From Artocarpus heterophyllus (lineage: Eukaryota; Streptophyta; Magnoliopsida; Rosales; Moraceae): a stretch of DNA of 64,000 nucleotides. How positions within the stretch are numbered: position 1 is the stretch's first letter; each line of letters opens with the position of its first letter. Under the pieces are notes generated by a model, which searched no databases, was not told the DNA's origin, and saw nothing but the letters and a program-made list of their open reading frames with translations. Location: assembly GCA_025403435.1 (NCBI GenBank), contig CM046349.1:20544004-20608003 (forward strand), given 5' to 3'. The translations under genes were made by a program, and so were the position numbers. Shown in pieces: positions 1,177 to 54,489 of the stretch.

Positions 1177-1368
1177 ACGGCCTGCCGAACTCTGTGGCCG
1201 GCCTGCCGAAGACCAGAAGTTCGTCCTGCCGATTGAATTTTTTGGCCTGCCGAACATGGCTGAATTTTCAATCAGTATTGCAAAGCCTCTGCTGGCCTAC
1301 CGGTAGAGGGAACTCCGGCCTGTCGATGATGTTCGGCCTGCCGAAGTCCCAAGTTCGGCTTGCCGAAC
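1177..1368. repeat. Cluster of eight TTCGGCCTGCCGAA-like palindromes
   Basis: Copies of a 14-bp imperfect palindrome (half-sites TTCGGC and GCCGAA around a 2-bp centre) begin near 1177, 1197, 1220, 1242, 1291, 1314, 1332 and 1354. Two are perfect in both half-sites (around 1332 and 1354). The others differ mainly by C/T or G/A changes. Spacers vary, so this is a cluster of sites, not a strict tandem repeat. The same motif occurs in the copia LTRs at 19.6, 25.6, 32.5 and 54.4 kb. Confidence 0.85.
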
Positions 1369-1492
1369 TGTGGGAGTAAGTAAGTTTTAAATAATTTGAT
1401 GTTTATTATGATATGTTGTGTTGTTTTGTTAAGTCCTGATTTTACAACTTGGTATATCATTTTATTAATATAAGTTCATGATTAATTTAAAG

Positions 1493-1500
1493 TATAAATG
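1493..1500 (+). promoter_or_regulatory. Possible TATA box of gypsy LTR
   Basis: TATAAATG lies about 125 bp downstream of the palindrome cluster and 218 bp before the LTR end, a sensible place for the LTR promoter. The match is imperfect and the region is AT-rich, so this is only a candidate. Confidence 0.35.
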
Positions 1501-1721
1501 AATAAATTATTGTAAGGAATAATTTAAACAATGCCTTTCGAAACAATGTTAAGTTAAAAAAAAAAAATGTATGAATGGATCCTGGTAATGTAAGTCTAAG
1601 TACTTTTAAAATCAATAGTAACGATAAAGTTTGATATTATTTATAATATTAAGATTTATGCTTGTACGAATGTAAGTATGTAACGACATCTGTGACGTCC
1701 GAATTAAGGGGCGTTGCAGGC

Positions 1722-1735
1722 TTTGGTATCAGAGC
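1722..1735 (+). other. Primer binding site (initiator tRNA-Met)
   Basis: TTTGGTATCAGAGC contains TGGTATCAGAGC, the usual complement of the plant initiator tRNA-Met 3' end. It lies three bases after the LTR end, so it fixes the LTR boundary and the + orientation. Confidence 0.92.
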
Positions 1736-1934
1736 AAATCTTTTGATTACAATTCATATCGCCACACGTCGATCCAAGTCCTCCAAGTAAGTATGGTATC
1801 AAGTTAGATGTATTGTTGCAAGTATGATGATAAGATTAAGGTTTGAATGATTAATGATTAATGATATGGTAGTAAAAACCTGTCTCATGAATGGAAGATC
1901 ATTTCTAAGTCCTAATTATTTTAGGAAATTTACA

Positions 1935-4900
1935 ATGGAAGGCCACAGAAGGATGCAGACCCGTACCCAAACTAACAAGAGACTTATGACGATGATCGCT
2001 GAACTGCAAAGGCAGTTGGAGGATCAAAGAAGGGAGATTGCTGCATTAAGGGCCAATGGCCATAACGGTGAACCACAAGGCAATGATGTGCCTCCTCCTC
2101 CTCCGCAGCCACAAGCACAAGTAAATGAAGTCCCAGCTCTTGCTGCTGAACCAAGAACGGCTTATCAGATACCTCTTTTGGTCAGATGGAAGAGAGTCAA
2201 GCCAGCTGACTTTGAGGGTTCAAAGGACCCGTTGGTCGCACAAGGATGGTTAAAGACAATTGAGGCCACCTTACGACTCATGGATTTCACGGACAATGAA
2301 AAGGTCCTCTGTGCCTCGTACTGCCTTACTATAGAGGCCAGAATTTGGTGGGATGGCATCGAACAGAGTAGAAATGTTGAAGAGATGTCATGGGCTGATT
2401 TTGTTCAAGAGTTCAACACAAAGTTCTTCCATATGAATGTTACAAGGAAGCATTATGAGGAGTTTGAAAGCCTACGTCAAGGGGATATGACAGTCACTGA
2501 TGTGGTGACAAAGTTTGACCAGTTTGCTCATCTATGCCCAGGGATGGTTATGAACGAAGGTGAAAGCGTCAGAAGGTTGATCAGGGCCCTTAGACCAGAC
2601 ATTGCTACAATTGTTGATGGGACTAGTCCGCCAAGGACCCAAGAACAGGTTGTTATGAGGGCCCAGCGTGCTGAGTTTCACTTGTCAAAGTTAAGAAGGA
2701 ATCAGCCTTAGCCCAACCAGTAGGCCAACAATGCCAACAACTAGAACCGTCCTCCCTACAGGAACAACAACAACAACAACGGCAGCAACAACAACAGTCA
2801 GAACTGGAGAAACAATAAGAGGAAGGGTAATCCTCAACAACAGCAGGGCCAAGACAACAAAAGGCACAATGATGGTCAGCGCAACAACAATGATAGGCGA
2901 TTCCAACCATGTGCCAAATGTGGAAAGAAACATCCAAGGGAATGCCGATTGGGGACCAACCAATGTTTCATATGTGGGCGCGAAGACCATTTCGTTAAGA
3001 ACTGTCCCAAACTAATGAATGCTAATGCCCCGCAGAGACCTCCTCCTCAAGCCCAGCTGCATCAGATGCAAGCCTCCCTTGAAGGGCCACTAATTAGTCA
3101 AGGGAGACTTGAAGCCCCACCGACCAACGCCCAAATCTATGCCATGACAAAAGAACAAGTGGCTGCTGAAGCCTCCAATGTGGTCACAGGTCAGATAACA
3201 AGCTCATGTAATAATGTTTATGTTCTTTTTGATATGGGTGCCACGCATTATTTTGTATCTATGTCACATGCTAAGAAGTTAGGGGTTCGTTTAGAGCCTA
3301 TGAGACAGGGATTCACTACGACACTACCCTCTAGGGAAGTGATATTATCCACGCACTGTTTGCGTAAAGTACCCCTATGGATTTCTGATAGGGAACTTTT
3401 TATCGACCTCATTGTGATCGACATGCATGACTATGACATGATTCTTGGGAAGGATTTCCTAAGTAAGTATAATGCCTCGATCGAATGCCAGAAACGAAAG
3501 GTGATCTTCCATCCTAAAGGTGATCGGAAATTCGTTTATGTTGGTGAGACCAGAAAGAAACCTCACATGTTTTTATCGGCAATGAAAGCAAGGAAGCTTT
3601 TGGCAAATGGCTGCATGGGCTATCTGGCAAACGTTGTAGACAAAAGCCAAGAAGGAAAGACAAGAATGGAAGATGTACATGTTGTTCATAAATATGAAGA
3701 TGTGTTTCCTGACGATCTAACGAGTCTACCCCCAGAAAGAGAAGTTGAATTCGAGATTGAGCTTGCTCCAGGCACCGAACCAATCTCTAAAGCGCCTTAT
3801 AGAATGGCCCCTGTAGAATCAAAGGAGCTTCACACGTAATTAAAGGAGCTACTTGACAAAGGATTTTTCAGGCCAAGTCACTCACCGTGGGGTGCTCCAG
3901 TCTTGTTTGTGAAAAAGAAGGATGACACTATGAGACTCTGCATCGACTACAGAGAACTGAACAAGGTGACAATCAAGAACAAGTATCCGTTGCCTCGAAT
4001 TGATGATTTGTTTGATCAGCTCAAGGGTGCATCGGTGTTCTCCAAGATTGATCTACGATCAGGGTATCATCAGTTGAAGATTAAAGAAGGAGATATTCCC
4101 AAGACTGCTTTCAGGTCGAGGTATGGTCACCATGAATTTGTGGTTATGCCTTTCGGTCTGACAAATGCACTGGCTGCCTTTACGGATTTGATGAACAGGG
4201 TATTCAAGGATTTCCTCGATAAATTTGTTGTTGTATTCATCGATGATATTCTTGTCTACTCTAAGAATCAAGAGGAATATGAGGAGCATTTAAGGATTGT
4301 GCTGGAGACTTTAAGAAGACACCAGCTATATGCTAAGTTCTCTAAATGCGAGTTTTGGATTGATAAAGTGTCATTCTTGGGGCATATTATTTCAAAGGAT
4401 GGGATTATGGTGGACCCGGCTAAAGTAGAAGCTGTACTCAATTGGAAGCAACCGATGAATGCAAGTGAAATAAGAAGCTTCTTGGGTCTAGCAGGTTACT
4501 ATCGGAGATTTGTAGAAGATTTCTCCAAGATAGCAGCTCCACTCACAAACTTGACTCGCAAAGGAAAGAAGCATGAATGGACGGATGCATGCGAAAAGAG
4601 TTTTCAAGAACTGAAGAAAAGATAAACGACGACTCCAGTATTGGCAATTCCTGAGGGAAATGATGGATTCATAATCTACAGTGATGCATCCAAGATGGGC
4701 CTAGGAGCTGTATTGATGCAGAATGAAAAGGTAATTGCTTATGCTTCAAGACAACTAAAAGACTACGAAAAGAACTATCCTACTCATGATCTCGAGTTAG
4801 CAATAGTTGTTTTTGCGTTGAAGATATGGAGACACTATTTATATGGGGTCCAATGCAAGATCTTCACTGATCATCAAAGTCTGAAGTACTTCTTCACGTA

Positions 4901-5327
4901 AAGAGACCTGAATATGAGACAATGAAGATGGCTAGAGTTGGTGAAGGATTATGATTGTGAAATCCTTTATCACCTTGGTAAAGCTAACCGAGTAGCTGAT
5001 GCTTTAAGTAGGAAGTCAATTGCCACGTTGATGTCTATGCAAGCAATGTCTCCACCTCTAAGGAAGGAAATTCTAGACTTCAGTTTAGAACTTATAGCAG
5101 GCCAGCTATCAGCACTCTCTCTTGCTTCGACGATGTATGATGAAATTCAGAGTAAGCAAGATGACGACGTAAGCCTTGTAAGAATCAAACAAGAAATGAA
5201 AGAAGGAAAATGTCAAGAGTTTCATATTGCGGATGACGAAACTTTGTATCTTAAGGACCGTTTATGTGTTCCCAAAGTCGATGATTTAAGGGAAAGGATC
5301 TTGGCAGAAATTCATGACACTCCTTAA
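1935..5327 (+). pseudogene. gypsy gag-pol polyprotein, stop-riddled, lacks integrase
   Basis: A single reading frame runs from ATG 1935 (MEGHRRMQ...) to 5327 with no frameshift. In-frame stops are at 2709, 2721, 2742, 3837, 4623, 4899 and 4923. Gag has a coiled-coil-like start (about residues 15-40), a proline-rich stretch, and an Asn/Gln-rich tail followed by two zinc knuckles (CAKCGKKHPREC, then CFICGREDHFVKNC near 2970-3010). Protease has DMGATHYFVS near 3230, where the family has D-T/S-GA, so the catalytic motif is altered. RT (about 3850-4560) keeps [13 protein letters not shown] and the catalytic FIDDILVYS near 4236. RNase H has [12 protein letters not shown] (about 4680) and [10 protein letters not shown] (about 4865). 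The frame ends at ILAEIHDTP, where the element is cut. An inactive relic, but reads cleanly as an old intact polyprotein. Confidence 0.93.
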
Positions 5328-5985
5328 GTAGAATGATATTGATAACTCTTATCAATTCATTCCAGTATGGCCATACATTTTTCTTCAGTCTAACTTATCG
5401 AGGGGGCCATAGATATCTTTCTTGTAATAAATGAGGGACAAATTCCTTCTTAATCACTCACATTCCTCACCTCTATATCCAACAATAATCCATTCCATCA
5501 TCATGTCAAAGGTAATATTAGAATGTGTCAAAATATAGAACTTGTCATGTAGGAAACAATGGTGATTTTAGGTTAGAGGACTAGGATAATACTATTGTGA
5601 TGATAATCACTTATGACAATTATCCATGTAGTATTCTCATAGCGGGTAGATCCAATACATCATTTCTCAAATATTTATCTATGAGTTGACTTAGTATCTC
5701 ATACACATGATTAGTAAAACATAATCATCAGTCAAACTTCATACTAGTCTTCATTCATTATTATACCAATAATAATGACCGACTAGGGATAATTTAGAAT
5801 AGAATTCAATTTTCACCTAAGAGTTTTACTATCAAGTCACATACCTGATGACCTTAGGTAGAATTAACTATTCAGAGAATTATAATAAAAAACAATAATG
5901 AAAATGCCTCTTTATTAATAAAATACAAATGCAACAAAGTCAAAATATGGTCATTACATAATTGGCCTAGGGTACATCACTAACA
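5326..5985 (-). repeat. Truncated 3' LTR of copia A
   Basis: Strongly similar along its length to 12393-13058 (shared blocks include TTATCGAGGGGGCCATAGAT and TGACCGACTAGGGATAATTT). In element orientation the LTR starts TGTTAGTGATG at 5985 next to the polypurine tract. The other about 0.9 kb of the LTR, including the expected R/U5 side, is absent. The junction with gypsy pol lies within about 5320-5332. Confidence 0.9.
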
Positions 5986-5995
5986 ATCTCCCACT
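5986..5995 (-). other. Polypurine tract of copia A
   Basis: On the - strand AGTGGGAGAT lies immediately before the 3' LTR start TGTTAG. This is the usual plus-strand priming site of plant copia elements and follows the RNase H stop codon at 6000-6002. Confidence 0.8.
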
Positions 5996-5999
5996 TGCA

Positions 6000-8900
6000 C
6001 TAGGCCCAATTAATATTGTATCTAATACCCATTGACCAAGTATGACTCTCATGCTTAGGCTGTGGAAGAGGCTTAGTGAGTAGATCAGCAACATTCTCAT
6101 TTGTAGGTATTATGCATATCTTCACGTCTCCTCTCTCAATGATTTCTTGAATGAGATGATAACGCCTGAGTGTGTGTTTGGATCGTTGATGTGATCTAGG
6201 TTCTTAGCTTGTGCTATGGCCCCGTTATCATCACAATACAAGTCTACTGGATCTGATATACTAGGAACAACACCCAATTCAGTAATAAACTTTTTGATCC
6301 AAATTGCTTCCTTAGCTGCTTTTGAGGTGGCTATATACTTAGCTTCTGTTGTAGAATCAGCAACGGTGTCTTGCTTTGAACTTCTTCAGCTCACGGTACC
6401 TCCATTCAAACAGCACACATAGTCTAACTACGATCGAAAGTCATCCTTGTCAAATTGGAAGCTGGCATCTGTGTAACCACTTACAACAAGCTCATCTTCC
6501 TTTCCTCCATACAGCAAGAATGCATCCTTAGTTCTTCTCAAATATTTAAGGATATTCCTGACTGTTGTCCAGTGACTTTCACTTGGATCTGATTAGTACC
6601 TGCTTGTTATGCTTAAGGCATATGAGATATCAGGTCGAGTACATAACATAACATACATGATAGATCCAATGGCAGAAGCATATGGAATCTTATTCATGTG
6701 GTCTCGCTCATCTTGTGTCATTGGACACTGAGTCTTGCTGAGACTAATTCCATGCGACATTGGCAAGAATCCTCTCTTGGCATCTTGCATACTAAACCTA
6801 TTCAATACCTTGTCAATGTATGTACTTTGACTTAGGCCAATAAGCCTCTTAGATCTATCCCTATAGATCTTGATGCCTAGAATATAGGCAGCTTCACCTA
6901 AGTCTTTCATTGAGAACAATTCCCTAACCATGATTCAACATTTTGTAGAGTAAGGATATCGTTTCCAATGAGTAATATGTCATCAACATATAGCACTAGA
7001 AAGACTATTGCGCTCCCACTAACCTTTTTGTAAACACAAGGCTCATCTTCATTTTTAATGAAACCAAACTCTTTGATTGCTTCATCAAAACAAAGATTCC
7101 AACTCTAATATGCTTGTTTCAATCCATAAAGTGGATCTTTGAAGCTTGCAAATCTTTCCAGAATTCTCAAGACTAACAAAACCCTCGGGTTGTGTCATAT
7201 ATATATCCTCAAGTAGGTTTCCATTAAGAAACGCTGTTTTTGACATCCATTTGCCAAATCTCATAATCAAAGTATGCAGCTATGGTGAGGAGAATCCGAA
7301 TGGATTTAAGCATAGCAACTAGTGAAAAAGTTTCATCATAGTCTATACCATGTGTTTGCTTGAAACCTTTTGCAACCAGTCTTGCCTTAAAGGTATGCAT
7401 ATTGCCATCCATGTCTATTTTCTTTTTGAAAACCCATTTGCACCCAATAGTCTTCAAATGATCAGGCGAATTAATCAAAGTCCATACTTGATTATCATAC
7501 ATGGATCGCATCTCTGACTTCATGGCTTTTAGCCATTTATCACAGTTAGGGCTATTCATGGCCTCTTGGTAGGATGTGGGCTCATTTTGATCCACAATCA
7601 TCACATCATTATTATCAGTTAAGAGAAATCCATATCTCTTAGGGCTTTGACGTGTCCTACCAGACCTCCTCGGGCCTTGTGCTACTTGTGTAGGCTCAAC
7701 AGCTACTTGTTGATCTAGTTGAGATTCCATAGTTGGTTCAATGCTATTTTGTGGTTCTTGAATTTCTTCAAGTTTACCTTTACTCCCACTGGTTCCTTTA
7801 GAAATGAATTCTCTTTCTAAAAAGACACCATTCCGAGCAACAAACACTTTGTTCTAAGAAGCATTGTAGAAGTAATATCCTTTAGTTTCTTTAGGATATC
7901 CCACAAAAAGGCATTTGTTTGATTTGGGTGCCAATTTATCTAAATTTGACGCTTCACATAAGCCTCACATCCCCAAATCTTAAGAAAAGACAAACTAGGC
8001 GACTTCCTAGTCCACATCTCATATGGTGTCTTTTGAACCACCTTTGATGGAACTCTGTTCAGTATAAACGTAGCAGTTTCCAAGAGCATACCCCCAAAAG
8101 GATATTGGAAGATCTGACTGACTCATCATAGATCGAACCATATCCAATAAAGTTCGATTTCTCCGTTCAGACACACCATTCTGTTGTGGTGTTTCTGGTG
8201 GAGTTAATTGTGAGACTATCCCAAAATCTCTAAGATGATCAACGAATTCTTGGTTTTAGTATTCACCACCTCAATATGATCGAAGTGCTTTAATACTTTT
8301 ACCAAGTTGATTTTGTACTTCATTTTTGAAAATTTTAACTTTTCAAAAGATTCAGATTTTTGTTTCATTAGATAGACATAGCCATATCTACTAAAATCAT
8401 CTGTGAAAGTAATGAAGTACTGAAAACCTCCTCTGACAGTGGAACTTAATGGTACACATACATCAGAATGTACAAGGCCCAATAGGTCATTAGCCCTTTC
8501 ACTATGTCCAGTAAAAGGTGTCTTAGTCATTTTGCCTAATAAAAAAGTCTCACATACTTCAAATGATTCAAAATCAAATGAATTCAAAAGCCCATGTTGA
8601 TGGAGTTTTGAAATGCGTTTCTCATTTATATGGCCTAAACGACAGTGCCAAAGATAGGTAGGGTTTAAATCTTTAGATTTAAACTTCTTTGTATTAACAT
8701 TATAGATGGACTTTTCATTTTTGTTTTCAATGTTCACAACATAAAGACCATTCGTTTGTGGAGCATATCCATAGAAAATGTTATCACGGTAAATGGAGCA
8801 TTTATTATTCCTAATAATAAACTCAAAATTTTCCTTGTCCAAACAAGAAACAGAAATAATATTCCTACTCATAGTAGGTGCAAAATAACAATTTTCTAAA

Positions 8901-11459: not shown

Positions 11460-11471
11460 GCTCTGATACCA
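11460..11471 (-). other. Primer binding site of copia A (tRNA-Met)
   Basis: The + strand GCTCTGATACCA reads TGGTATCAGAGC on the - strand, one base from the LTR edge at 11473. This fixes element orientation and the end of the 5' LTR. Confidence 0.92.
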
Positions 11472-11472
11472 C

Positions 11473-16660: not shown

Positions 16661-16664
16661 GAGT

Positions 16665-18235: not shown

Positions 18236-18272
18236 ACATGTCGTATTTACTCACTTAGTGCAAGTGAGAGAT

Positions 18273-20187
18273 TGTTAGACATGATGCCCTAAGGTGTAAA
18301 TGTTGTAATAGGTTTTTAGGGACATTTTATTAATAAAAATATTTATTATGCATATACCAAATGTTGTCTTTTTTATGCTCATTTCTATTGAATATATGAT
18401 ACGCAAACAAAAATTTGAGACTGTTAGTCTAAGACTTTTTATGATAGACAGATTATGTGGAAAATATGAATCTTAAAGGTGATAGTCTAAATGATAAGAT
18501 CTGCAATTGAGTGAATAAAATTGGATGCTTAATTCATGCTAAGATTGTTATGTTGTCTACATCCCTAACAGGAGATGACTTGTCTTGGTCATCGGAGTGG
18601 GACTCTACAAGTAGAAACATTGGTATATTGTCATAGGTGATGATATATTGGATTGAGACGAAAAGTTGAATTAATTTGGTTAATAATTCTACTTGTCTAG
18701 ATAAATTCATTTTAGACAATCATATGTGTTGTGTCTTAATCCTAAAATGACTAATAGGCTCATATTCTTGGCTTATGTCTTTTGATGTACCAAAGGGTGA
18801 CATCCTGATGATGGTACGCATACCAATATATTGGAGACATGACTCTTGATCCTCGTAGACTCATTATTTATAGATATGAAACCCATAGCTCTTTTGTAGA
18901 ATTAATGATATTCTCTTATATGTATTATCCTGTAATTGAAAGACTGGAGCGCTTAACTATTCAGATACATAGGTGTAACCAAATGTACAGTACTTATGAA
19001 TAGATTCCAATAGTGAGATAATGGAACGTAGGATAAAATAATTGGGAAAGTAAAACATAATTTATCCTTAAGCTAATTATGAATATCCTATGGGGATATG
19101 ACACATTATGATATGTCATGGACGGTTAGCTTATTAGTGCATTGTAATTTTATATAGTTCGAGAGTGTAACTCTAAGCTTTTAGTAGAGTAGCATTAGAA
19201 GATAATTATAAAATATATATATAGGATATGTTATTTTATAATTATAGGAGCTTGATCTATATATGTCCATCGGGTTCCTTTGGTAGCTCTCAATAAATCT
19301 GCAACGATACTTTGTATTTTTCCTATATATTGGTGACTTGTGTTAATTATTAGATTGGTTGAAATTCAATAAGAGTGGATTTAATAATTTATGTTAGTTT
19401 GTTGGTTGAATTAATTTTGTAAATTAATTCAATAAAATATGTTGAATTACTTGGATAATACTTTGTTTACTATGGGATTATCTATATATGATTGTTTTAA
19501 TCAGATAAATTTTTAATTAGGTTATTTAAATTAAAACTTAGAATCTATCTAAGATTCCCTTGTAAAAATAAGATATTCTGAGGATTCTAAATTAGCATAT
19601 GGTCAGTAGGCCGATGGTTAAGTTAGGCAAGCTGATAGAGCTAGTTTGGCACGCTGATCTCCCAGATCAGCATGCCAAAAATGCTACAATCAGGTCATAT
19701 GTTTTTGACGCATTTTTCATCAAAAGTTGATCCAGACTCGAATTTTGAAGCCTAATTTGATAAGGTTTAAACCTAGATTCGACCACTATAAATAAGGGTG
19801 AGTTTTCTTTGTTATTTAGCTCATTTGAGAAGCATAGAGTGAGTACTCTAATAAGAGAAACTCTAAAACTCCCTAAGAGATATTGTTCAATATCAAGAAT
19901 CTTAGCTCTAAGTATTTTCAAGTTGTTGGAAAGAGACTCACCAAAGGAAAAGCTATACGACGTGTGACCACCCTCACTCCGATTATGGATAGAGAATAGC
20001 AAAGAAGACTAATTAATTGAGGCACTTTTGGAATATTCTTCTCTACACGTATTCCTACTACTTTCGGTATACAAAAGAGATATGTAAGATTTGTCATTAA
20101 TTTATGTATTTAACATATCAAACTTGTTATTTGAAAAATACTATAATTTAAAATTTTTAAAATTTTGTTACGTATTGTTTTCCAACA
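18273..20187 (+). repeat. 3' LTR of copia B (1.9 kb)
   Basis: Starts TGTTAGACATGATGCC right after the purine-rich GTGCAAGTGAGAGAT and ends ...TTTTCCAACA at 20187. A TATAAATA box lies at 19787-19794. Degenerate copies of the TTCGGCCTGCCGAA-type palindrome occur at about 19601-19680, ending about 107 bp upstream of that box. The same LTR family is found at 25111, 32019 and 52974. Confidence 0.88.
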
Positions 20188-25110: not shown

Positions 25111-26699
25111 TGTTGTAAAACGATATGCAGCGGAATTTTAAAAATTTTAAATCTTTTTAAAATAACAAGTTTGTTATGCTAAATACATAAATTAATAAAA
25201 GATCTTATGTATCTCTTTTGTCGATCGAAAACTATGCAAATTGCAACTAGAGAAGAACATCCAAAGAGCCTCAATTAACTGGTTTTCTTTGTTATTCTCT
25301 TTCCACTATTGGAATGCCGGCAATCGCACATCGTATAGTTTTTCCTCCGATGACCTCTCTTTTCAACCACTTAAGAAACCAATAGCTAAGGTTCCATATG
25401 TTGAATAATAGTTCTCTGGGAGTTTAGAGCTTCTCTCACTAGAAAACTCTTTCTATATTTCTCAATTGATCTAAAGAACAATGAAAAAGAGTTCCCTTTA
25501 TATAGTAGTCAAATTTGGGGATAATCCCTATCAGATTAGGCTTCAAAATTTGAGTCTGAATCAACTTCTGATCAAAAACTTGTCAAAAACATGTAATAAG
25601 ATTATTGCACGATTGATTTGCCAAATTGTGCGATCGGGCTATCGAACTAACGGCACTGGCTTGTCGAACTCGACAAACAGCCTCCTGATCAAGTGATAAT
25701 TTGGAGTCTCATAATATATTATTTCACATGGATCTTAGATAGAGCCTTAGTTTTAATTCAAATAACTCAATAGAGAAGTTATCTGATTAAAACAACCATA
25801 CACAGATACTCATAATCGTCTTTGACATATCATAATATGTAACATCCCCATAGGATATTCATAATCGACTTAAGGATAAATTTTATTTTATTATCCTAAT
25901 TATTTTTATCTTATGTTGCATTATCTCACCATTAGAAAACTTACTATTCGTAAATAGTATACCATTCAGTTACACCTATGTACCCAAATGGTTAAGCACT
26001 CCAGTTTTTTAATTACAGGATAATGCCTATAAGAGCATATCATTAACTCTACAAAAGAGCTACTGATTCTATATCTTTGAATAATGAGTCTACGTCAAAG
26101 AAGAGTCATGTCTCCCATATACCAGTATGCGTACCTTCATCTAATTCAAGATTTCACCTTTTGGTACATCAAAACACACAAGTCAAGAGTACGGGCCTAT
26201 TAATTTATCTCAGGATTAAGATGCAACATATATGATTATCTAAAGTAAATTGATTTAAACAAACAAAATTATTAATTAAATCAATTCAACTTTTTGTTTG
26301 GATCCAATATATTGTCACCTATGACCATATACCAGTGTTTCTACTTGCGCAGTCTTACAATAATAAGCAAGAAAAATCATCTCCTGTAAGGGATATAAAC
26401 CACATAACAATCTTAACATGAATAAATTTAATGCCCAAATTTATTCTCTCGATTACGGACCTTATTATTTAGACTATCACCTTTAAGATTTATGTCTTCC
26501 GCTAAATTTGTCCATTATATGCATGATATTAAAGGTTTAGACTAACAGTCTCAGACTTTTGTTTGCTTATCGTATATTTAATATAAATGAACATAAAGAG
26601 GACAACATTTCATATATGAAAGAGTAATAAATTCTTCATTGATTAAATGTCTCCAAAAACTTATTACATCATTTAATCCTTAGGGCATCAAGTTTAACA
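25111..26699 (-). repeat. 3' LTR of copia C
   Basis: On the + strand it runs TGTTGTAAAACGATATGCAG to ...AGTTTAACA. A - strand TATATAAA box lies at 25497-25504. Palindrome-motif variants at 25615-25680 sit just upstream of it on the - strand. Compared with the 5' LTR it lacks about 190 bp around 25745-25840. Confidence 0.9.
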
Positions 26700-30476: not shown

Positions 30477-32003
30477 TTCTCAAAGAATAGGATGATATTT
30501 AAGTTTTGTTTTCAATCATTATAATTCTTGATAGTTAAAGTGTTTTTATCAAGTATCAAAGATAATGTGTTTTTAAACATTTTGATCTACACTAAAGAAT
30601 TATATATCAAATATAAGCAAATATTCAACAACAATTTAGTAAGATAACACAAAGAGGTAAGCATATAATCTGTTTATGTGTCAAAATCTTAAAAAAATCA
30701 CAACCTTACAATGATAATCCCTAGCTCAAAATTCAACAAACCACTTAGGGGAGACTTTCCAAATTCAATTGGGAACACAGAACCCCTCTGATTGGTTTAT
30801 ATCATCCAAGCCTTGTTTGATCTAGCATATACTAATAATCATTTTCTTTGGCCATTAACTTTATTAATAGAGCTCCTAGGGGTGGTTAATAATAAATTTA
30901 ATCTTGAGTGAATAATCATCATTTCAACCACTTTATACATGATTTATAATCAACATTAGGGGTGAACAATAATAAATCACGCTAAAGCAAATTATCCTTT
31001 CGGAGATCAAACTCGGTACATGATGCAATACTTTCCTAGGGGTCGAAACCACCATGTGTTACTTATGAACTAATGATGGAGGGCTTAGGTCCTCTCTTTA
31101 AAAATCTTCTCCCATTCAATATTTTAGAAATCAAGGTTTTATATTAACTTGCATGAATAAACAATTGTAATATCATGGTTCTATCCTAGAGAAAAACATA
31201 AAGATTACAAAAGATCAATCGAAACAGATATCGATTATTCATCTTGTATCTTTTCGTTGTATCCTTCTTCATGTGGCGTCTGTCTTCAACCTTTCCATCT
31301 CATATAAATAAAAAATTTATTTTTCTAATTATCATAAAATTTCATGTTTCTCATAATTGTCTCAAAAAACAAAAATAAAAACTACATCGAAAAACGTTTT
31401 GTTTAAAAAAATGGTTCTACCTATTGATCGGCTTGCCAGTCTATGACCACTAGCCTACCAATCTGCGATCATCGGCTTGCCAGTCTTGGGTAACCGGCTT
31501 GCCGATTGACGTTGAACCATAGTTTTTCTAAACTTTTGTAAAAATAACTTTTAAGTAGTATTTAATTTATTTTTCAACAATTCAAAAGTATAAAAATTTA
31601 TAAAACACACATGAACTGTAATCATCTCCATCTTCTAGATCTGTCTTCACTTTGAATAATTATTTGAATGAAAATTTTATAAACCATAATTAAAATAATA
31701 AATCCTAGACGATGATGATAGACCGCCATCTAATTACATGAAAAATCTAGATACATATTTTAACCTCTAAGGAACCATAACCGGCAAAATTAATTAATTA
31801 ATATAATAATTAAAATACAAAATTTAATTAGCCATAATTAATTAATAAACATCCACCATATAATCTCATGACAACATTTAATTATATAAAAATCCTAGAG
31901 GGCAAACTCTCTAAAAAATTTAATTCAAGCATAGGAAAGAATAAGATCACATAATTTATGTACATATCATGATTATAAACTCATAAAATCAATGTAAAAC
32001 TAT
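30477..32003 (-). other. Non-coding leader of copia C
   Basis: About 1.5 kb between primer site and Gag, without coding signal. It includes an additional cluster of the palindromic motif at 31426-31508, outside any LTR. Confidence 0.7.
31426..31508. repeat. Cluster of four GCTTGCC-type palindrome variants in copia C leader
   Basis: GATCGGCTTGCCAGTC (31426), CTAGCCTACCAATC (31450), ATCGGCTTGCCAGTC (31471) and ACCGGCTTGCCGATTG (31493) are variants of the TTCGGCyTGCCGAA site found in the LTRs. The spacing of 20-25 bp is as in the LTR clusters. Confidence 0.75.
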
Positions 32004-32016: not shown

Positions 32017-32018
32017 AT

Positions 32019-33798
32019 TATTAAAAAACGATACGCTGCAAAATTTTAAAAATTTTAAATCATAGTTTTTTTCCAAGTAACAAGTTTGATATGTTAAGTA
32101 CATAACTTAATAAAAGATCTTACGTACCTCTTTTATAGACCAAAAACTATAGAAATAGCAACTAGAGAAGAACATCTTGGAAGAGTCTCAATTAACTGGT
32201 CTTCCTTGCTATTCTCTTTTCATGATCGAAATGCGAGTGGTCGCATATTATATAGTTTTTCCTATGGTGACCTCTCCTTTCAACCACTTGAGAAAACCAA
32301 AAGCTAGATTCTAGATGTTAAACAATAGCATTCTGAGAGTTTTAGAGTTTCTCTCAATCGAATATTCTCTCTATACGTCTCAAATGATCTAAAGAACAAA
32401 GAAAAACAACTCCTTTTATATAGTGGTCGAATTTGGTGTTAATCCTTATCATATTAGGTTTGAAGATTTGAGTTTGGATCAATTTCTATTAAAAAAAGAG
32501 CTTCAAAAGAGTATAACAGAATTATCACATGGTTTGCTTGTCGAATTGTACTATTGGCCTGCCAAACTAGCGGCACCGGCCTGTCGAACTCGGCAACCAC
32601 TTGCCGACTAAACGATAATCTAAAAATCTCAAAATATCTTATTTCACTCTGGAATCTTATATTAAATCTATCAAATTTTAGCTAATTTAATAATTAATAT
32701 AAGTCACCAATATGTACGAAAAATACGTCGTATTGTTACATGAATTATTATAAACTAGTAAAGGGGAACTAATAGACATATATAATTCAAGCTCCTATAA
32801 TTATAAAATATATCTCAAAAACATATATTTTATAATTATCAAGTCTAACGCTATTCCACTAAAAGCTTAGACTGCACTCTTGAACTATATAAAATTACAA
32901 AGCTCCAATAAGTTAATCGTGCATGACATATCATAATGTGTAATATCCCTATAGGATATTCATAATCGGCTTAGATAAATTCTGTTTTACCTTACTGATT
33001 ATTTTTATCTTATGTTCCATTATCTCACCATTGAAAAACATACTATCCATAAATAGTATACCATTCAGTTACACCTATGTATCCAAATAGTTGAGCGCTC
33101 TAGAATTCCAGTTATAGAAATAATACCCATAAGAGAATATAATTAATTCCACAAAAGAGCTATAGATTCCATATCTATGAATAATGAGTCTAGGTCAATC
33201 ATGAGTCATGTCTCCAATGTATTGTATGTGTACCTTCTTCTAATTTAGGATGTCACCCTTTGGTACATCAAAAGACAAAAGAAGCCAAGAATGGCTCATT
33301 AATTCATCTTCGGATTAAGATGTAGCACAAATGATTGTCTAAAGTGAATTGATTTAAACAAATAGAATTGTTAATTAAGTCAATTCAACTTTTTGTCTTG
33401 ATCCAATATATTGTCACATATGACAATATACCAGTGTATTTACTCGTAGAGTCCCACTCTGATGACCAAAACAAGTCATCTCTGTTAGGGATATAGACAA
33501 CAAAATAATCTAAACATGAATAAATCACCCAACTTTATTCCATCGATTGCGGACCTTATGTTTAGACTGACAGTCTTAAAGATTTAGATTATGTCTTCTG
33601 CATAATCTGTCCATCATATACATGATCTTAAAGGTTAAGACTGACAGTCTTGGACTTTTGTTTGCTTATTATATGTTCAACATAAAGGAACATAAGGAGG
33701 ACAATATTTGATATATGAAATATAAATAAACTCTTTATTGATTAAATGTTTGTAAAAACTTATTACATCATTTAATCCTTAGAATACAAAGTCTAACA
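32019..33798 (-). repeat. 5' LTR of copia C (1.78 kb)
   Basis: Aligns with 25111-26699 from TATTAAAAAACGATACGCTG to ...GTCTAACA. The terminal TG has mutated to TA. A - strand TATATAAA lies at 32415-32422. Palindrome variants at 32531-32607 (for example TTGGCCTGCCAAA and CGGCCTGTCGAAC) lie just upstream of it. It contains a segment near 32690-32900 that the 3' LTR lacks or has replaced. Confidence 0.9.
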
Positions 33799-41109: not shown

Positions 41110-41117
41110 TATTTATA
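41110..41117 (-). promoter_or_regulatory. TATA box of the C2H2 gene
   Basis: The - strand reads TATAAATA within GTTATAAATAGAGG, 117 bp before ATG 40993. This predicts a start of transcription near 41085 and a leader of about 90 nt. Confidence 0.7.
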
Positions 41118-42372: not shown

Positions 42373-43339
42373 CAAGGTTTTAAAAGGCGAAAATGAGAAC
42401 CGAGGCTTTTTGTCTAATTGACGCCTTGAGGCGGATTGAGGCGCAAGCCTCGAATTCAAAATAAAAAAAATTCAAAAAGCTGAATAAAATTCATAAACAT
42501 GCCATAAAACACACACTTAGTTCATCACAAAACTATAAGACACAATAAGAAAGTACATAAAACACATACAATATAATATGTATGCTACTGTTCTTCTAAT
42601 ATGGTTATAATTATATGGCTTTTATAGCAAATAAGATAACCCTTTTTTTTTTTTTTGAGAAAATGAAATAACTATAGATCTAAATAAATAAAAATCACTT
42701 ATTGCACTCTTTATATAACTTTCATTTTATATAACATTATAACTTTTGCATAACACCTACTTCTATAAAATATACATTACTATAGTAGCTATAAGAGGGG
42801 AAAAAAGAAAAAAAAACCCAACCTAAGGTAGAAAATAAAAGAAAAAGGGGAAAAATAAACCTAAGGAGTGAGGACTGAGGAGGTCAGAATCTGGATGTGG
42901 CTGTTGTTCGTGGGCCGTCGTTCTAGTCACTGCTCATACGGCAGTGGGCTTGAAAGTTGCAGGGGTTGATGATCAAGAAAGGGTCGATGATGAAGAAAGG
43001 GGCAGATGATGAAGAAGTGTCGAAGAAGATGGTAGACTTAAGGTTTAAAAATCTATTTGCATATTTTTATCTGATTAAAGCCCGATTTTGATATTGGGTT
43101 GAATTTCTTTGAAAGGGGAAAAAAAAAGATTGGATTGAAAACCGGCTCAAAATAGCCTTCAATTTGAGGCTCACGCCTTATAAGCCTTGAGGCAAAAATG
43201 CCTCAAGGCACACGCCTCAAAGAAAAAAGGCGTAAGCCTCGTTCAAGCCATTCAAGGCTTAAGCCTTGAAGCGTTGATCAAGCGCCTCAAACTGAGGCGA
43301 GCCTCGAGGCGTACGCCTCGAACGCCTTTTAAAACCATG
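42373..43339. mobile_element. 967-bp hAT-like non-autonomous transposon
   Basis: The ends are CAAGGTTTTAAAAGGCG and, inverted, CATGGTTTTAAAAGGCG (16 of 17 match). The 8-bp ATTGACAT occurs directly outside both ends (42365-42372 and 43340-43347), a perfect target duplication of the length made by hAT transposases. Both ends are packed with GAGGCG/CGCCTC subterminal repeats (for example 42409-42455 and 43166-43330), including the palindrome GAGGCGTACGCCTC near 43307. No transposase frame inside, so it would depend on a relative elsewhere. Confidence 0.92.
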
Positions 43340-47245: not shown

Positions 47246-47575
47246 GGGTTGGCCAATTTCATTAGGTTGGGTTGAAAATGCACTCAAGCTACAACCTAGT
47301 AGACAATCTATCATGCCTTTTATATAGTAATAGATAATAGATATTTACATGTCGTAGTCATATTTTAATTCAAACAGAATTAGATCATTTGTCTCATAAA
47401 CCTATGGCTTATGTTTTTGGGTTAGGTCGGTCGGTTTCATCATGTTGGGTTAAAAACACACTCAAGTGGCAACCTAGCAAACAATATATTGTGCCTTATA
47501 TATAAGTAATAGATATTTACAAACTATAGTCATATTTTAGGTCATTTGTCTCATTAATATGTGACTTATGTTGTT
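47246..47575. repeat. Two-copy tandem repeat, about 160-175 bp
   Basis: The segment starting GGGTTGGCCAATTTCATTAG at 47246 recurs from 47419 (GGGTTAGGTCGGTCGGTTTC). The two copies share the order AACACACTCAAG, CAACCTAG, AGTAATAGATA, CATATTTTA and CATTTGTCTCAT. The copies are clearly diverged and differ by about 15 bp in length. Confidence 0.75.
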
Positions 47576-47879
47576 TGGATTGGATCGGAGGTGGCCCATT
47601 CTTGGAAGTGGACTGGCTCATATTGTGTTGATGAACAAATTTGAGTAATTAAAGAAGAATGAGCCAAACAACAGATTTGGACTAAGAATTAGTAAAAGGG
47701 AGAAATAGCAAAGCAATATATTTAAGTTAAAATTAGTAAATAATGTTATATTTTTAAAATGTTTAGTAAATAATATATTATGAGAAATTGGGATCTATAT
47801 TCTTATGAGAAATTGAGAATAAGAACCCAAAAGTATGATCACCTTTTTCTCCTTCCTAACTCCCCCTCTCCTCCCTTAC

Positions 47880-48470
47880 TAACACTAACGATAGCTAGGA
47901 TATAGTCTTTCTTGGCAACATCGTCAATGCTGGTAATGTCTGGCAACTAGGAAATATGATATTTCTTTGTAAATTTATTATTTCTTGAAAAATACAAAAA
48001 TTCACTAGCAATTTTGTTGGCCTATTGGCGACTAGCGACCGTGAAATACTATACATATAAATACTGTATTTTTATGTAAATACAAGAAAAATATTGATGA
48101 CATCACCGAACATCGTCGATACTGGCAACATTGTCAGCACTTAGGAAATATTATATTTCTCTAGAAATAAGGTATTTCTATGTAAATATGTAATTAACTA
48201 CCAAAGTTTTCAGACATCATTGGCATTGGCGACATCGTTGGCGACTAGGAAATACTATATCTACATGGAAATATAATATTTTCATATAAATACAAGAATT
48301 TATCAATGATGTCGCCAAACATCAATAGCACCTATGACTGATAAATACAATATTTTTCTAGAAATACAAATTTTTTAATAAATACAAAATTTACCAGCTA
48401 TGTCGTTGGTGGTTAGGAAATACTATATTTTTAAGTCAATATTGTATTTACCGTTTAATACTATATTTCC
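47880..48470. repeat. Minisatellite array 1 (about 100-bp units, diverged)
   Basis: Each unit has an AT half (AAATACTATATTT...ATGTAAATACAA) and a GC-richer half (GACATCACCGAACATCGTCG...GGCAACATTGTCAG...TAGG). About five to six worn units, in the same orientation as array 2. Confidence 0.7.
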
Positions 48471-48471
48471 T

Positions 48472-48491
48472 TATATATATATATATATATT
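48472..48491. repeat. (TA)n microsatellite
   Basis: About twenty bases of TA dinucleotide at the end of minisatellite array 1. The matching place in block 2 (about 50556) has a shorter TATATATAC version. Confidence 0.9.
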
Positions 48492-49539
48492 TACTAAAAA
48501 ATACCAACACTATCCAACGACATCATTGGTTGATAAATAACAAACATAAGAATAACAAAACTCAGACACAAAAGTCCATACAAAAACTCCTGATTATGTA
48601 AAAAATAGATTTGCAAACAAAAATCCAATTCATGGAAATAAAACAAAAATAAAAATAAAATTAAAGTAAAGCAAAGCAAAAAAACAAAAAGAGAAAACTT
48701 CCAGATTTGAGGCAAATTGTTTCATTTTTTTTCTTTTTTCTTTTTTTGCTTTTCTTTTCTTGTCACCTTTACTATTCGTCTCTCTCACACTCTCTCCCCC
48801 AAAATCTTTGTTGGAATTACTACATCGCACAAGCATGACTACCTTCATCTAGCGAAGATTGTCAAAGAAACTCCGTCGTCACTCATCCTGAGCTATCTTT
48901 AGCGCTAAGAAGAGCCTCCATTGCAGCAAACAATCTACACCCCAGTATTGAGAAAGCCTCCGTTGAAGCTTGAGATTTGCTATCATCAAGATCTTCCTCA
49001 TGTGCATGCTACGATCTTGAAGGGATAACTCTATCTTTGTCAATGGTGCTAATGAAGAGATCATTGTCTATCCTTATGCCCTCCGTCAAGGATGAAAACT
49101 CCTCTACGTGATTCCATATCTGGTTATGGTCTTGAAGAAGGAACTCTGTTGTCGTCAACATCTCTATGTGGGTGGCAAAGACAAAGAGATCATAGGAGAA
49201 AGAAATAAAGGGGAGAGAGAGAGACAAGGAAAAGAAAGAGAGGAAGAGAAAATAGAGAATAAAAGACCAGATATATTTTTTAAATAGGGTATTTTGGGTT
49301 TTTTTACAGGTTTAAAATTTGTATTTATCGTAAACATGCTATTTGCTAATTATTTACTAAATAGTTAGCAAAATGAGCTATTTGCTAATGTCATATGTTT
49401 TCAAAGTGTGTAGTAATAGCACATAATGAGAAATTGGGATCTATCTCATGAGAAATTGGGAATAAAAACCCCAAAATACCTTTACTGCTTTTTGTTCTCC
49501 ATCTCTTTCTCCTCTTTCATCGGCACTGGCGATAGTTGA

Positions 49540-50560
49540 AAAATACAAAATTTTCATGTCAAACTATATTTTCATATAATGAGAAAATTTACCAATGACG
49601 TCATCAGTCATCATTGACACCAATGAAAGGCCGACAGCGAGGACATATTGTATTTACACATAAATACTTATTTCCATGTAAATACAAAAACATACATGCA
49701 ACCTCACCGAACCGGCAAATACCGTGTTTAAATGTAAATTTTGCATTTTCATATAAATACAAAAATTTACTGAAAACATTGCCGGACATCATTGGCAGTG
49801 GCGTTGTTGCCCGCGGTTGAGAATTATATTGTATTTACATATAAATAGTATTTACATATAAATACTGTATTTATATGAAAATACATAAAATTAACAGCAA
49901 CTTCATTGGCGATTGGAAAATACAGTATTTATATGAAAATATTGTATCTTTATGCAGATAAAAAAATTTACTAGCAATGTCGTAGGCAATAGGAAAATTC
50001 TATATTTATATGGAAATACATTATTGCCGTGTAAATACAAAAATTAACCTATAAAGCTACCGAACATCACATACATCAGTGACGTCGCTTGCGGATAGGA
50101 AATACAATATTTACTTAGAAATATTGTATTTTTATATAAAAACAAAAATTTACCACAACGTTATCGGATATCACCGACACCGATGACATTGCCAACAGTT
50201 AGGAAATACTATATTTATATGAAAATACACTATTTACATGAAAATACAAAAATTAACCTATAAAGCTACCGAACATCACCTACATCAGTGACGTCGCTTG
50301 CGGATAGGAAATACAATATTTACGTAGAAATATTGTATTTTTATATAAAAACAAAAATTTACCACAACGTTATCGGATATCACCGACACCGATGACGTTG
50401 CCAACAGTTAGGAAATACTATATTTATATGAAAATACACTATTTACATGAAAATACACAAATTTACTGACGATGTCATCGAATATCACTGGCAACATCGA
50501 CAAATACTTTATTTCCTAATTAATAACATAATCACCAATCAATACTATATTTCCTAGTAT
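49540..50560. repeat. Minisatellite array 2 (about 100-bp units)
   Basis: About ten units that alternate an AT-rich half (AAATACTATATTTATATGAA, ATTTACATGAAAATACAAAA) with a half containing TCACCGACACCGATGACGTT or close variants. TGACGTCGC near 50080 and 50289 is one well-kept core. Confidence 0.8.
50041..50458. repeat. Recent 209-bp tandem duplication (two units of the minisatellite)
   Basis: AAATTAACCTATAAAGCTAC at 50041 recurs at 50250. The two 209-bp copies differ at only a few bases (for example ATCACATAC/ATCACCTAC, TTACTTAG/TTACGTAG, GACATTG/GACGTTG), far closer than other units of the array. Confidence 0.92.
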
Positions 50561-53500
50561 ATATACATATTTATAACAATGACACCAACATCATCTGACA
50601 ATGTCACTAGTAGGTAAATACAAATCGCATACATAAATAACAAAACATTATTAAAAAAATCCATACAAAAAATGCATATTCTATATGAAAATTAGATCTC
50701 CAAACAAACTCTATTTAGGAAAATAAAACAAAAAATGAAGCAAAAAAAAATAGATTTAAAGGATATTCGATTGGTCACCTAATGAAAAGGTCAGCGATGG
50801 TGGTTGTGGCTTCATGGTGCTAGATTTTGTTGAGGATTCATTGCCAGAATTTTGGTGCTGGTTGTGTTGGAGGAGATCACAGACACACTCAGACAGTAAG
50901 ACAAAAACTCATAATCTGATTTTCAATGGTGACACGATCCAAATGAAGGTGACGTGATCTCAAATGCAATTCCATATTAGATCCAGATGACTATCGTCAT
51001 GGACATGCTGAGTTAGGAGAGATCCGTGTAGAGCTAGTGGAGGATGCTCACCATGTTGGCCTTATCATCATCGCCACACAGTAATGATTAAACTAGTATA
51101 AGATGACTTGTGTATATGTTTATGTTCGAAATTTGATTTCTAAGATATGTTTGTGACAACCTAACTATTCAAGCTGTTACTTAATCTTTTTCTCAATATT
51201 AACCCTTTTTACTTAGTCATGAAAATGTGAAATAATTTTTTATCTAACTTCAAAACTTAAACTTATATTAACATTTTCTTTTCACATATACATTCTTAGT
51301 AAAAATATTTACAACATTTTATTAATATATTTTACATACCACACTAAAACCAAAACAGGTTTTTACTAAAATAACATATTTCAAAAACACTTAATTAACA
51401 ATGAAACTTTTTAGTAACGGTATCCATGCACATGTCTTCGCATTGCTCAACCATTGTTTCTAGCTCAACAATAATATCTAGTCTGGCCTCTTAGTTAGAT
51501 TTTCTATAGCATGAAATAACTAGGTAAGCTATTGTTTAATAAGTCTAAATTTAACTCACAAAATATTTTTTCTATAAAACTTAATGCATGATACCAATTA
51601 TGCTTATTTAAGAGAATTAACTTAATTTTATATTTTGACTTGAACCAAGGGCCCAAATACATGTACCAAGTGCGCATAAAGGTCATTGTATCACCGAGAC
51701 CATAATATATCATGAAGCTTCCCTTGGGTTGGAAGGCTGGTACCACACTTTCTTATCTTATTTGGCAAATCAATATATTAGCCCTTTTAATTATGGTGAC
51801 ATATCAAATATGATGCTTTAATAACTTGATTGTGCATAGCAAATGCATTTCGTAAAATAATAATATGTTTGAAAACTGTTTTACACATGTCGTACATGGG
51901 GTTTGAAACTTACTTCGATTCTATGCTTTTGTTTGGACAATATCTAATTATTAGCTAACTTCTTTAACAGAATTTGAACATTAAACACTTTTTTTATACA
52001 CTGTATCTCCGCCACATTACTATTGGTTTATTTGTAACTCAAACGTTACGTGACTGGACTTCTCATTCCGTGTTATCATCATGACACATAATAGGTTATA
52101 GGAAAATTTCCCGCTAGGGGACATTTTCTTAAATTGGATGTTTCAGGGTCTGTGTAAGCCTTTTTACAAAAAATGACTATTTTGCCTTTGCTGGATCATA
52201 TAAGACTTTTTGAATATGTTTTAATCAAAAACTTACATTTTCTTGCTATTCATAATGGCGCAGAAAACAAGACATTGGTTTTCTTTTTGCAAAATTTAAA
52301 ACTTTATAGTTTTTACCCGAAATACGAAAATTTTGATAATTTTTCCCCTAGGACTGAAAACTACCACTTTTATCTCGTTATGCTCACTTTTTTTCAAGGA
52401 TTAAAGCTTTTTAAAGTTTTCAAGTCAGAATCCCTTTATTTCAAAACATTTTACACACTTAAACCATTTTAAAATTTTGTGATTAAATCTCATAAAATTA
52501 TTAACTAAAGATCCGTGCAGAATTTTTATAAACTGTTCACGATCTTAAAGAGTTTTGGAGATCAACAACTCTTGTATTTAACTTTTACAAAATTCAAACC
52601 TTTTAGTGGGGTTTTTGGCCAATTTTGAAATTTTCTTCTTTAGAAATTTAAACTTTTCATTAGGATCCAATTGAAATTTTACAAAATTTTCTTCACAAAA
52701 GTCATTTATCTCAATGTTTCTGATAAATCTCACGTTTTTGTATAGAAAATAAATTAGCCTCTAAGATTGTCAAAACCTTAATTCTTTGAAAAGTATCCAG
52801 ACTTTGTTTTATGATAAAGTTTATCAAACTTTCCTTTTTAAGCACAAAACCATAGTTTCTACTATCTATCTACGTCAAAATCCATATAAAACATAAAATA
52901 GTCATGTCTTAGTGTCTTTTTAGTATGCCATACTCCAAACATATTACAAATTATAAACTTACCTCATGAAAGCTGTTAGACATGTATGCCCTAAGGAGTA
53001 AAATTGTAATACGTTTTTGGAGACATTTTTATCAATAAAGAATTTATTTATTTATATATACCAAATCTTGTCCTCTTTACGTTCATATTCGTTGAATGTA
53101 TGATAAGCAAACAGTAGTCTGAGACTGTCAATCTAAACCTTAAGAATTGGGCATATGATGGGATGATTATGCGGTAGACACGATTTTTAAGGTGATGGTC
53201 TAAAACATATGATCCGCAATCGAGGGAATAAAGTTGGACGCTTTATTCATGTAAAGATTGTTATGTTGTCTATATCCCTTATGGGAGGTGGTTTGTCTTG
53301 GCCATCGGAGTTGGACTCCGTGAATAGAAACATTGGCACATTGTCATAGGTGACGACATGTTGGATCGGGACATAAAGTGAATTGATTTGGATTAATAAT
53401 TCTGTCTTGGCAAATCGATTCACTTTAGACAGTCATTTGTATTGTTTCTTAATCCTGAGATGAATAGTAGGCCCGTTGTCTCGACTTGTGTCTTTTGATG

Positions 53501-54410
53501 TACCAATGGGTGACTCCCACATCTCTATAGTGGTATGCATGCCAATACGTTGGAGGCATGACTCTTGATAGCGTAGACTTGTTATTCATAGATATGGAAT
53601 CCATAGCTCCTCTTTAGGAGTAATGATATCCTCTTATATGCGTTGTCCTGCAATTGAAAAACTGGAGTGCTCAACCATTTGGATACTTAAGTGTAACCAA
53701 ATGGTATACTATCTTTGGATGGTAAGTTTTTTAATGGTGAGACAATGGAACGTAAGACAAAAATAATCGGGAAGGTAAGACAGAACTTGTCCTTAAGCCG
53801 ATTATGGATTATCATATGGGGATACGATACACTATGATATGTCATGGAGACTTGGCTACACGAGCTTCGTAATTCTATAAAGTTCGAGAGTGCAGCTCCA
53901 AGCTTTTAGTGGAGTAGCGTTGGAGTTGATAATTGTGAAATGTATATCTGGGATATTGGGTTTCATAATTATCATGAGCTTGAACTTTATAGGTCCATTT
54001 TGGTCCCCTTTGCTAACTCATAAAGTCCTGTAACGACACGGCGTGCTTTTCCAATAATTGGTGACTTATGTCGGATTTATCAGATTGGTTTAAAATTTGT
54101 AAGAATCAAATAATTCATGTCGTTTATTGGTTGAATTAATTTTGTAAGAAATTAGTTCAAGATAAACTTGTTGAATTATTGTGATAAGATAATTCTTGTC
54201 TGTTTATTGGTTGATTTAATTTTGGATAAATTAGATCAAGATAAACTTGTAGAATTATTGTGAATTGATTTATTTTCTTAGAGATTATCTTGATAAAGTT
54301 TGTTTTGATCAGATATCTTCTCTATTGGGTTATTTGAATCAAAACTGAGACTTTATCCTTTAGAATCTCGGGTGGAAAATAAAAGATTCGTGGAGATTTT
54401 TTCTCGGGAG

Positions 54411-54489
54411 TTCGGCCTGCCGGATGACGTGTTCGGCTTGCCGAACTGGGCTGTTCGGCCTACCGATCAGACAGTTTGGCCTGTCGATC
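54411..54489. repeat. Cluster of four TTCGGCCTGCCGAA-type palindromes in the solo LTR
   Basis: TTCGGCCTGCCGGA (54411), TTCGGCTTGCCGAA (54432), TTCGGCCTACCGAT (54454) and TTTGGCCTGTCGAT (54476), spaced about 21-22 bp. The cluster ends 119 bp before the TATA box at 54608. These are the best-kept copies in the copia family. Confidence 0.88.

Follow-up and report, generated by a model that had tools for sequence, protein, structure and literature searches.

A 16-bp palindrome arrayed in the long terminal repeats of copia and gypsy retrotransposons of Artocarpus heterophyllus

In a 64,000-bp stretch of contig CM046349.1 of Artocarpus heterophyllus (hereafter the window), clusters of a GC-rich palindrome, TTCGGC-YT-GCCGAA, lie in the long terminal repeats (LTRs) of both Ty3/gypsy and Ty1/copia retrotransposons, which raises the question of how elements of two superfamilies come to carry the same short sequence. 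An earlier note on this DNA had described the clusters and proposed that a dimeric factor binds them, and that both element types acquired or retained them at a constant distance from the promoter. The palindrome array is real, genome-wide and spans the two superfamilies. The closest named protein matches come from Parasponia and Rhamnella, with two unnamed ones ranking above them, which points to a probable origin in Rosales. Sites were scored by matches at twelve fixed positions, and the arrays of the window are the following.

1176..1367, forward strand: palindrome array in the 5' LTR of gypsy element 1 (Del/Tekay type), seven clear sites and a weak one near 1291
54411..54488, forward strand: palindrome array in the copia solo LTR, four sites in steps of 21-22-21 bp
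19602..19679, forward strand: worn array in the LTR of copia B, its orientation relative to the flanks opposite to that of the solo LTR array
25633..25668, reverse strand: worn array in the 3' LTR of copia C (LTR about 25117-26699), two sites at 8/12
32532..32588, reverse strand: worn array in the 5' LTR of copia C (LTR about 32025-33798)
31427..31506, reverse strand: worn second array of copia C, in the 5' untranslated region (5'UTR), sites at 31427, 31471 and 31493 (8-9 of 12), counterpart of positions 1892-2053 of locus L057

Eight sites had been claimed for gypsy element 1, and seven of these are clear (1176, 1197, 1220, 1241, 1314, 1332 and 1354; 9-12 of 12 positions matched), the eighth being weak. 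The four claimed for the solo LTR were all found (54411, 54432, 54454 and 54475), and the worn sites claimed for copia B and C were located at 19602-19679, 25633-25668 and 32532-32588. Nine sites of the window score at least 10/12, and all fall within the arrays of gypsy 1 and the solo LTR; dinucleotide-shuffled versions of the window (100 shuffles) yield 0.33 on average. At a score of at least 9/12 there are 20 against 6.3 expected, and the named arrays hold 16 of the 20. No site of at least 9/12 was found in the LTRs of copia A in the window, nor in the minus-strand gypsy at 51152-64000 when the nested solo LTR is excluded. High G+C distinguishes the gypsy 1 array, in line with its description as GC-rich and CpG-containing, but its CpG observed/expected ratio (0.91) is no higher than that of the adjoining LTR parts (0.90 and 1.42).

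Allowing one mismatch at most, the 985-Mb source genome (334 contigs) contains 46,600 forward and 47,063 reverse sites, 93,663 in total, and the reversed pattern, used as a control on the same genome, occurs 45 + 50 = 95 times; the real motif is thus in about 1000-fold excess. Loci were drawn as 20 systematic 10-kb stretches (contigs C1-C20 at 3.00 Mb, 200 kb in total) and as 20 neighbourhoods hand-picked from the exact motif matches listed on C1, with four further 10-kb loci taken for context. In the systematic 200 kb all 35 sites scoring at least 10/12, which form 11 arrays spread over six of the 20 stretches, lie inside element arrays or at most 80 bp away, and none occurs elsewhere. An array of three or more sites was found in 19 of the C1 neighbourhoods, and in the twentieth, L048, a copia LTR bears two strong sites. 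Since this set was picked from exact matches on a single contig, it under-represents rare families and worn arrays. In total 40 arrays were analysed, four from the window and 36 from other loci, their assignment to classes being made partly by hand; L007 and L008, which overlap L006, were dropped, and L011 and L048, copia LTRs with two strong sites each, were not counted as arrays. Viral contigs were scanned as well: a two-site pattern had five matches there, each a single chance pair in a contig of 56-66% G+C, with no arrays, and no relatives of the gypsy reverse transcriptase (RT) turned up.

The 40 arrays belong to three element lineages of two superfamilies, namely one Ty1/copia family, a Del/Tekay-type gypsy and a second gypsy lineage. 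By class, 12 are copia LTR arrays, two are LTR arrays of the copia B/C subfamily, six lie in the copia 5'UTR, six are downstream arrays of the Del LTR (the class of gypsy 1), six are upstream arrays of the Del LTR and eight lie in LTRs of the second gypsy lineage. The copia family carries one array in the LTR and one in the 5'UTR, and the Del/Tekay-type gypsy carries two per LTR. The carrier parts in the window are these.

1..1719, forward strand: part of the 5' LTR of gypsy element 1, ending in ...GGGGCGTTGCA and followed by the primer-binding site TGGTATCAGAGC at 1724
1851..4898, forward strand: gag, protease, RT and RNase H of gypsy element 1 in separate frames, RNase H by homology to L056
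18273..20187, forward strand: 3' LTR of copia B
52974..55006, forward strand: copia solo LTR, 2033 bp, with a perfect 5-bp target duplication AAAGC at 52969-52973 and 55007-55011

An empty paralogous site of the solo LTR lies near 63905. The LTR of gypsy 1 probably begins to the left of the window, its length being estimated from the sibling L055, which has one array about 240-370 bp inside the LTR and another farther down. By att criteria given in passages of PMC4029996, gypsy 1 has the Del/Tekay features of a type A U5 att, with GGG at -8 to -10 and a CA end (...GGGGCGTTGCA), and a U3 att close to TGTAACACCC, the LTR of L055 starting with TGTAACGCCC after a polypurine tract (PPT). Behind its integrase L055 has a Chromo match that is weak and falls short of the Pfam cut-off (E 1.5e-4); this part of the window copy is cut off by copia A. 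The second gypsy lineage is represented by L056, a young, near-complete element whose LTRs are 98.7% identical over 2150 bp and whose reading frames are interrupted. Since its RT is 71% identical to that of gypsy 1 (gag 26% over 131 residues) and the array-masked LTRs do not match, the two gypsy lineages are related in RT and not in the LTR.

The copia element L057 carries an LTR array and a second array about 500 bp past the primer-binding site, ahead of gag. Sireviruses carry multiple AGGGGGAG polypurine tracts in a linker ahead of the 3' LTR, but no copy of AGGGGGAG is present in the internal region of copia C, the 3' part of copia B or the internal region of L057, so that by linker and PPT this family is not a Sirevirus. 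The terminal PPT of the family is AGTGGGAG (AGTGAGAG in B), with a linker of about 18 bp in L057; the PPT and LTR start resemble those of Angela-type copia elements. The Sirevirus 5' junction (CA/ATTGG followed by TATCAGAGC) is present, L057 reading CCAACA-ATTGG-TATCAGAGC; passages of PMC2829016 record the same junction, in semi-conserved form, in some classic copia elements.

The gypsy and copia LTRs had been described as showing no other similarity. This stands, none being detectable, but the solo, B and C LTRs of copia are about 68-81% alike over longer aligned pieces and, being one family, are not independent cases. Array-masked LTRs taken one per lineage (solo copia, L055 and L056) gave no mutual blastn match at E <= 0.01; three matches of 29-33 nt (E 6e-4) occur between flanks of other array classes. 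Single-linkage clustering merged the copia LTR and second-gypsy arrays, a merger that we rejected: the link lay in flanking DNA of L045 only, whose right flank matches three second-gypsy copies about 540-650 bp out, and the cluster was for that reason split by hand. An apparent similarity of array edges between gypsy 1 and the solo LTR (TCTCGG before, GGGAG after) was not significant.

The site itself is a 16-mer, GTTCGGC-CT-GCCGA(A/T)C, with 0.5-2.2 bits per base (equal-weight mean of five array classes), and the eight bases on either side of it carry at most 0.23 bits. Sites were collected at a threshold of at least 8 or at least 9 of the 12 fixed positions, and bases outside this search criterion are also informative (outer G 1.02, outer C 0.94 and the centre 1.3 bits each). 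An array has about 3-9 sites with the core CGGC-YT-GCCG. Of 136 gaps, tallied from the distinct gap patterns of each class, 81 measure 21-22 bp and 95 measure 21-23 bp. When the units of one array are compared, the difference between palindromes is 0.15-0.28 in the five main classes and 0.35 in B/C (four pairs), and that between spacers is 0.57-0.75, where 0.64 is expected at random. Between classes, a best-match test of the spacers (60 shuffles each) gave 0.02 for one of ten class pairs and 0.08-1.0 for the others, and in a pairwise test the median P was 0.14-0.60, similarity being least firmly excluded for the second gypsy lineage. Strict helical phasing, indicated by gypsy 1 alone (R 0.78 at periods of 10.2-10.9, p 0.005 versus random placement), was rejected in the wider set, whose gaps break it.

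Orientation is unmixed within 34 of the 40 arrays. Read off by hand against the direction of transcription, the copia main LTR and Del downstream arrays point one way and the copia B/C LTR, copia 5'UTR, Del upstream and second-gypsy arrays the other, a variation that a dyad site would allow. The B/C arrays (19602-19679, 32532-32588) are reversed between homologous flanks relative to the main copia LTR array (54411-54488), and the copia 5'UTR array (31427-31506; L057:1892-2053) is opposite in orientation to the main-subfamily LTR array. In several classes (L037, L050, L036 and others) CTCG or a similar tetramer stands right before the first site and may mark a shared array edge. Compensatory pairing of half-sites was not found above chance (4.73 observed versus 4.81 for independent halves, P(null>=obs) 0.96), in a test corrected for the 9/12 threshold, which was the main cause of an earlier apparent anti-correlation between half-sites. 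Because the half-sites do not compensate beyond chance, reading by a protein is favoured over base pairing.

We propose, with moderate confidence, that each array is a cluster of sites bound by a single sequence-specific protein, probably a dimer, and that selection among active elements has kept the sites. This is suggested by the sharp 16-bp information, the unshared spacers, the varied orientation, the lack of compensatory pairing and the lack of off-array sites in 200 kb. We infer from sequence the protein, its binding, the selection and the sign of any effect, which might be activation, escape from silencing or repression. The putative binder would be a host nuclear protein or one supplied by the element, neighbouring dimers could sit side by side on the 21-22 bp repeat, and the sites would be placed in non-coding regulatory parts, that is, the U3 and 5'UTR of copia and the long LTRs of the two gypsy lineages. 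Active copies that retain the sites would leave more offspring, so that sites persist as spacers turn over, and dead copies would lose them mainly through CpG decay. Of 60 deviations at the two CpGs, 53 are CpG transitions, as would be expected of methylated dead copies. More tentatively, copia and gypsy may have taken up this 16-bp dimer site independently and multiplied it to about 10^5 copies, one host regulator controlling, or being titrated by, many retrotransposons; the site would then be a regulatory address common to parasites of two superfamilies, with paired arrays per element in copia and Del. If one protein does read the sites, the genome would offer it about 90,000 near-perfect landing places, all those in the 200-kb sample lying within retrotransposon arrays. 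Such a protein would give a handle on the host factor that switches plant retrotransposons on or off, and would bear on two further questions: whether elements of different kinds come by their regulatory parts through convergence or exchange, and how inserted arrays might rewire nearby genes.

Divergence between copies speaks for this proposal in part. Palindromes are less divergent than spacers in 10/10 pairs of Del downstream arrays, 25/28 of second-gypsy, 13/15 of Del upstream and 44/45 of copia LTR arrays (the distant L043 was excluded from Del, and 21 of the 66 copia LTR pairs had too few aligned positions, leaving the 45). They are clearly better kept than the flanks only in Del upstream arrays (15/15), and less so in second-gypsy arrays (20/28).

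Several observations weigh against selection on a protein site. Copia 5'UTR palindromes are no better kept than their spacers (6/15 pairs) and diverge more than the flanks (0.073 versus 0.047; better kept in 0/15 pairs), those of Del downstream arrays hardly differ from the flanks (0.127 versus 0.136, lower in just 4/10 pairs), and those of copia LTRs diverge by 14% versus 8% for the flanks (better kept in 8/45) and 46% for the spacers. Should units be shuffled between arrays, the alignment itself would account for part of the palindrome identity, and agreement among palindromes is partly built in because sites were selected by threshold. With each array oriented by majority, 161 of 211 sites have CT at the centre, a stricter preference than simple symmetry would call for. 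Gaps of 18, 26-27, 38-39 and 50 bp are at odds with strict helical phasing, and no common promoter role is evident because the arrays differ in place.

Among closely related copia LTRs (for example L038, L045, L052 and the window copy at 54411) the spacers differ by 47%, the palindromes by 14% and the flanks by 4-7%. Because both palindromes and spacers differ more than the flanks, the copia LTR array is a turnover hotspot, in which units seem to be replaced while the palindrome and its spacing return.

The main rival, compatible with the proposal of a protein site, is that sharing reflects descent: an ancestral array or unit would have moved between lineages by recombination or template switching, its spacers then diverging, with or without a selected function. 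We regard this as possible but doubtful. Nested insertions and mixed particles offer the opportunity, and the non-symmetric CT centre and a frequent A-to-T change at position 14 are common to all five classes; the one-way orientation of sites in 34 of the 40 arrays is as after tandem duplication, and CTCG stands directly ahead of the first site in the copia 5'UTR, Del downstream and second-gypsy arrays. Second-gypsy spacers resemble the others weakly (29%, 25% and 19% of copy pairs at P<=0.05), and by mean spacer score five of ten class pairs lie beyond all 200 shuffles, related copies being counted as independent in that test; the best-match and pairwise tests, which we judge fairer, are mostly null, and the lineages have no LTR sequence in common outside the arrays, whose positions and orientations differ.

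Another role, proposed for the LTRs of maize Sireviruses, is that of RNA hairpins feeding small RNAs or of densely methylated targets; we consider it unlikely here. In maize the palindrome clusters of Sireviruses attract excess small RNAs, according to passages of PMC10760457. Arrays do fold better than shuffles (z -5.0 for gypsy 1, -2.7 for solo and -5.0 for B), and the CpG transitions described above are a sign of methylation decay; against this, the copia C array folds with z -0.7, self-pairing within sites does not exceed the expectation for independent halves, good folding follows trivially from palindromes and one array class sits upstream of a TATA box. Least probable, and very unlikely, is a neutral by-product of minisatellite-like tandem duplication in GC-rich LTR stretches. 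The tandem layout with a 21-22-bp period and the strong turnover of units between close copies would fit it, but three lineages whose spacers differ carry the same 16-mer, units of one array lack strong identity in their spacers, and spacers are near random between units where palindromes persist despite two CpGs each, a result that the site threshold partly favours.

The protein-site proposal had originally included a fixed promoter distance. Here the part concerning a dimeric site kept by different element types is the best-supported reading in the larger sample, and the distance part is supported in one copia family only. The reference TATA box is that of the solo LTR.

54608..54615, forward strand: TATA box of the copia solo LTR, 120 bp beyond the array

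The TATA box stands 119-121 bp beyond the array in all 11 main-family copia LTRs whose stretch reaches it (the twelfth copy, L015:9914, ends short of its position) and at 108-110 bp in copia B and the 5' LTR of copia C; the distance is thus constant within the copia family (108-121 bp). It is no general rule. At the position of the TATAAA noted in gypsy 1 (1493), the six Del copies read TATAAA once, TATAAT three times, TCTAAT once and TATGCT once (the distant L043), and the array of the gypsy 1 class sits deep within an LTR some 2.7 kb long. The other arrays are in the 5'UTR, near the LTR start, or about 0.9 kb or more inside the LTR, and a position shortly upstream of a TATA box was not seen for Del downstream, second-gypsy or copia 5'UTR arrays. 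A few hundred bp beyond the Del upstream array lies a pyrimidine-rich stretch followed by a GTAAG donor-like site, with a similar stretch in L056, which suggests that Del and second-gypsy transcripts may start early in the LTR, placing the gypsy 1 array in the leader.

Repeated factor sites upstream of a TATA box are known from the tandem U3 boxes of the copia elements Tnt1 and Tto1; these, unlike the arrays described here, are of few copies, have a known stress link and are confined to one family each. Closer are the repeated motifs (RMs) of Sirevirus LTRs, described in passages of Bousios et al. 2010 (PMC2829016) as palindromes with a CGG-CCG core that occur in many copies upstream of the TATA box and in Sireviruses only, classic copia elements lacking them; near-identical RMs occur in Sireviruses of low homology from distant hosts (Osr10, Osr8, Vitis and Inga), and OPIE-2 and PREM-2 have one consensus. 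Our arrays resemble the RMs in their CGG-CCG palindromes, several per LTR, in the GC-rich cluster upstream of TATA (in copia LTRs), in the extra clusters elsewhere in the element and in not being assigned to one known factor; they differ in that one 16-mer occurs in a non-Sirevirus copia family and two gypsy lineages of one genome, and in that the additional arrays are found in the 5'UTR or at another place in the LTR and not, as in Sireviruses, ahead of an env gene. Sharing of near-identical motifs within the Sireviruses is already known; the label Sirevirus-specific no longer fits CGG-CCG palindrome clusters.

Del/Tekay LTRs have plastic CpG islands in monocot groups only, eudicot Del (group I) being without them in the passages of Cruz et al. 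2014 (PMC4029996), the main text of which lacks the string 'palindrom'. The Del arrays here are like those islands in forming a GC-rich, fast-changing 5' LTR part of a Del-type gypsy, and unlike that pattern in occurring in Del LTRs of the eudicot type reported without islands. The maize palindrome CACCGGACNNNGTCCGGTG is common to structured regions of Copia and Helitron elements (passages of PMC10760457), and is likewise one palindrome in two element kinds of one genome; however, its sequence is another, its partner is a Helitron, its context is RNA structure, and sharing with Ty3/gypsy does not appear in those passages. Among the matches listed by text searches of the open part of PubMed Central, there was no report of one palindrome common to copia and gypsy LTRs, and no plant factor was named for the palindrome site.

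Other repeats of the window include a dense cluster of different GC-rich palindromes at 43184-43321 (GCCTTGAGGC... and TCGAGGCGTACGCCTCGA), unrelated to the LTR motif, and a tandem array of AT-rich units of about 104/209 bp at 48250-50493. The minus-strand gypsy at 51152-64000, the second such element of the window, is accompanied by flanking repeats, one of which is broken by the copia solo LTR.

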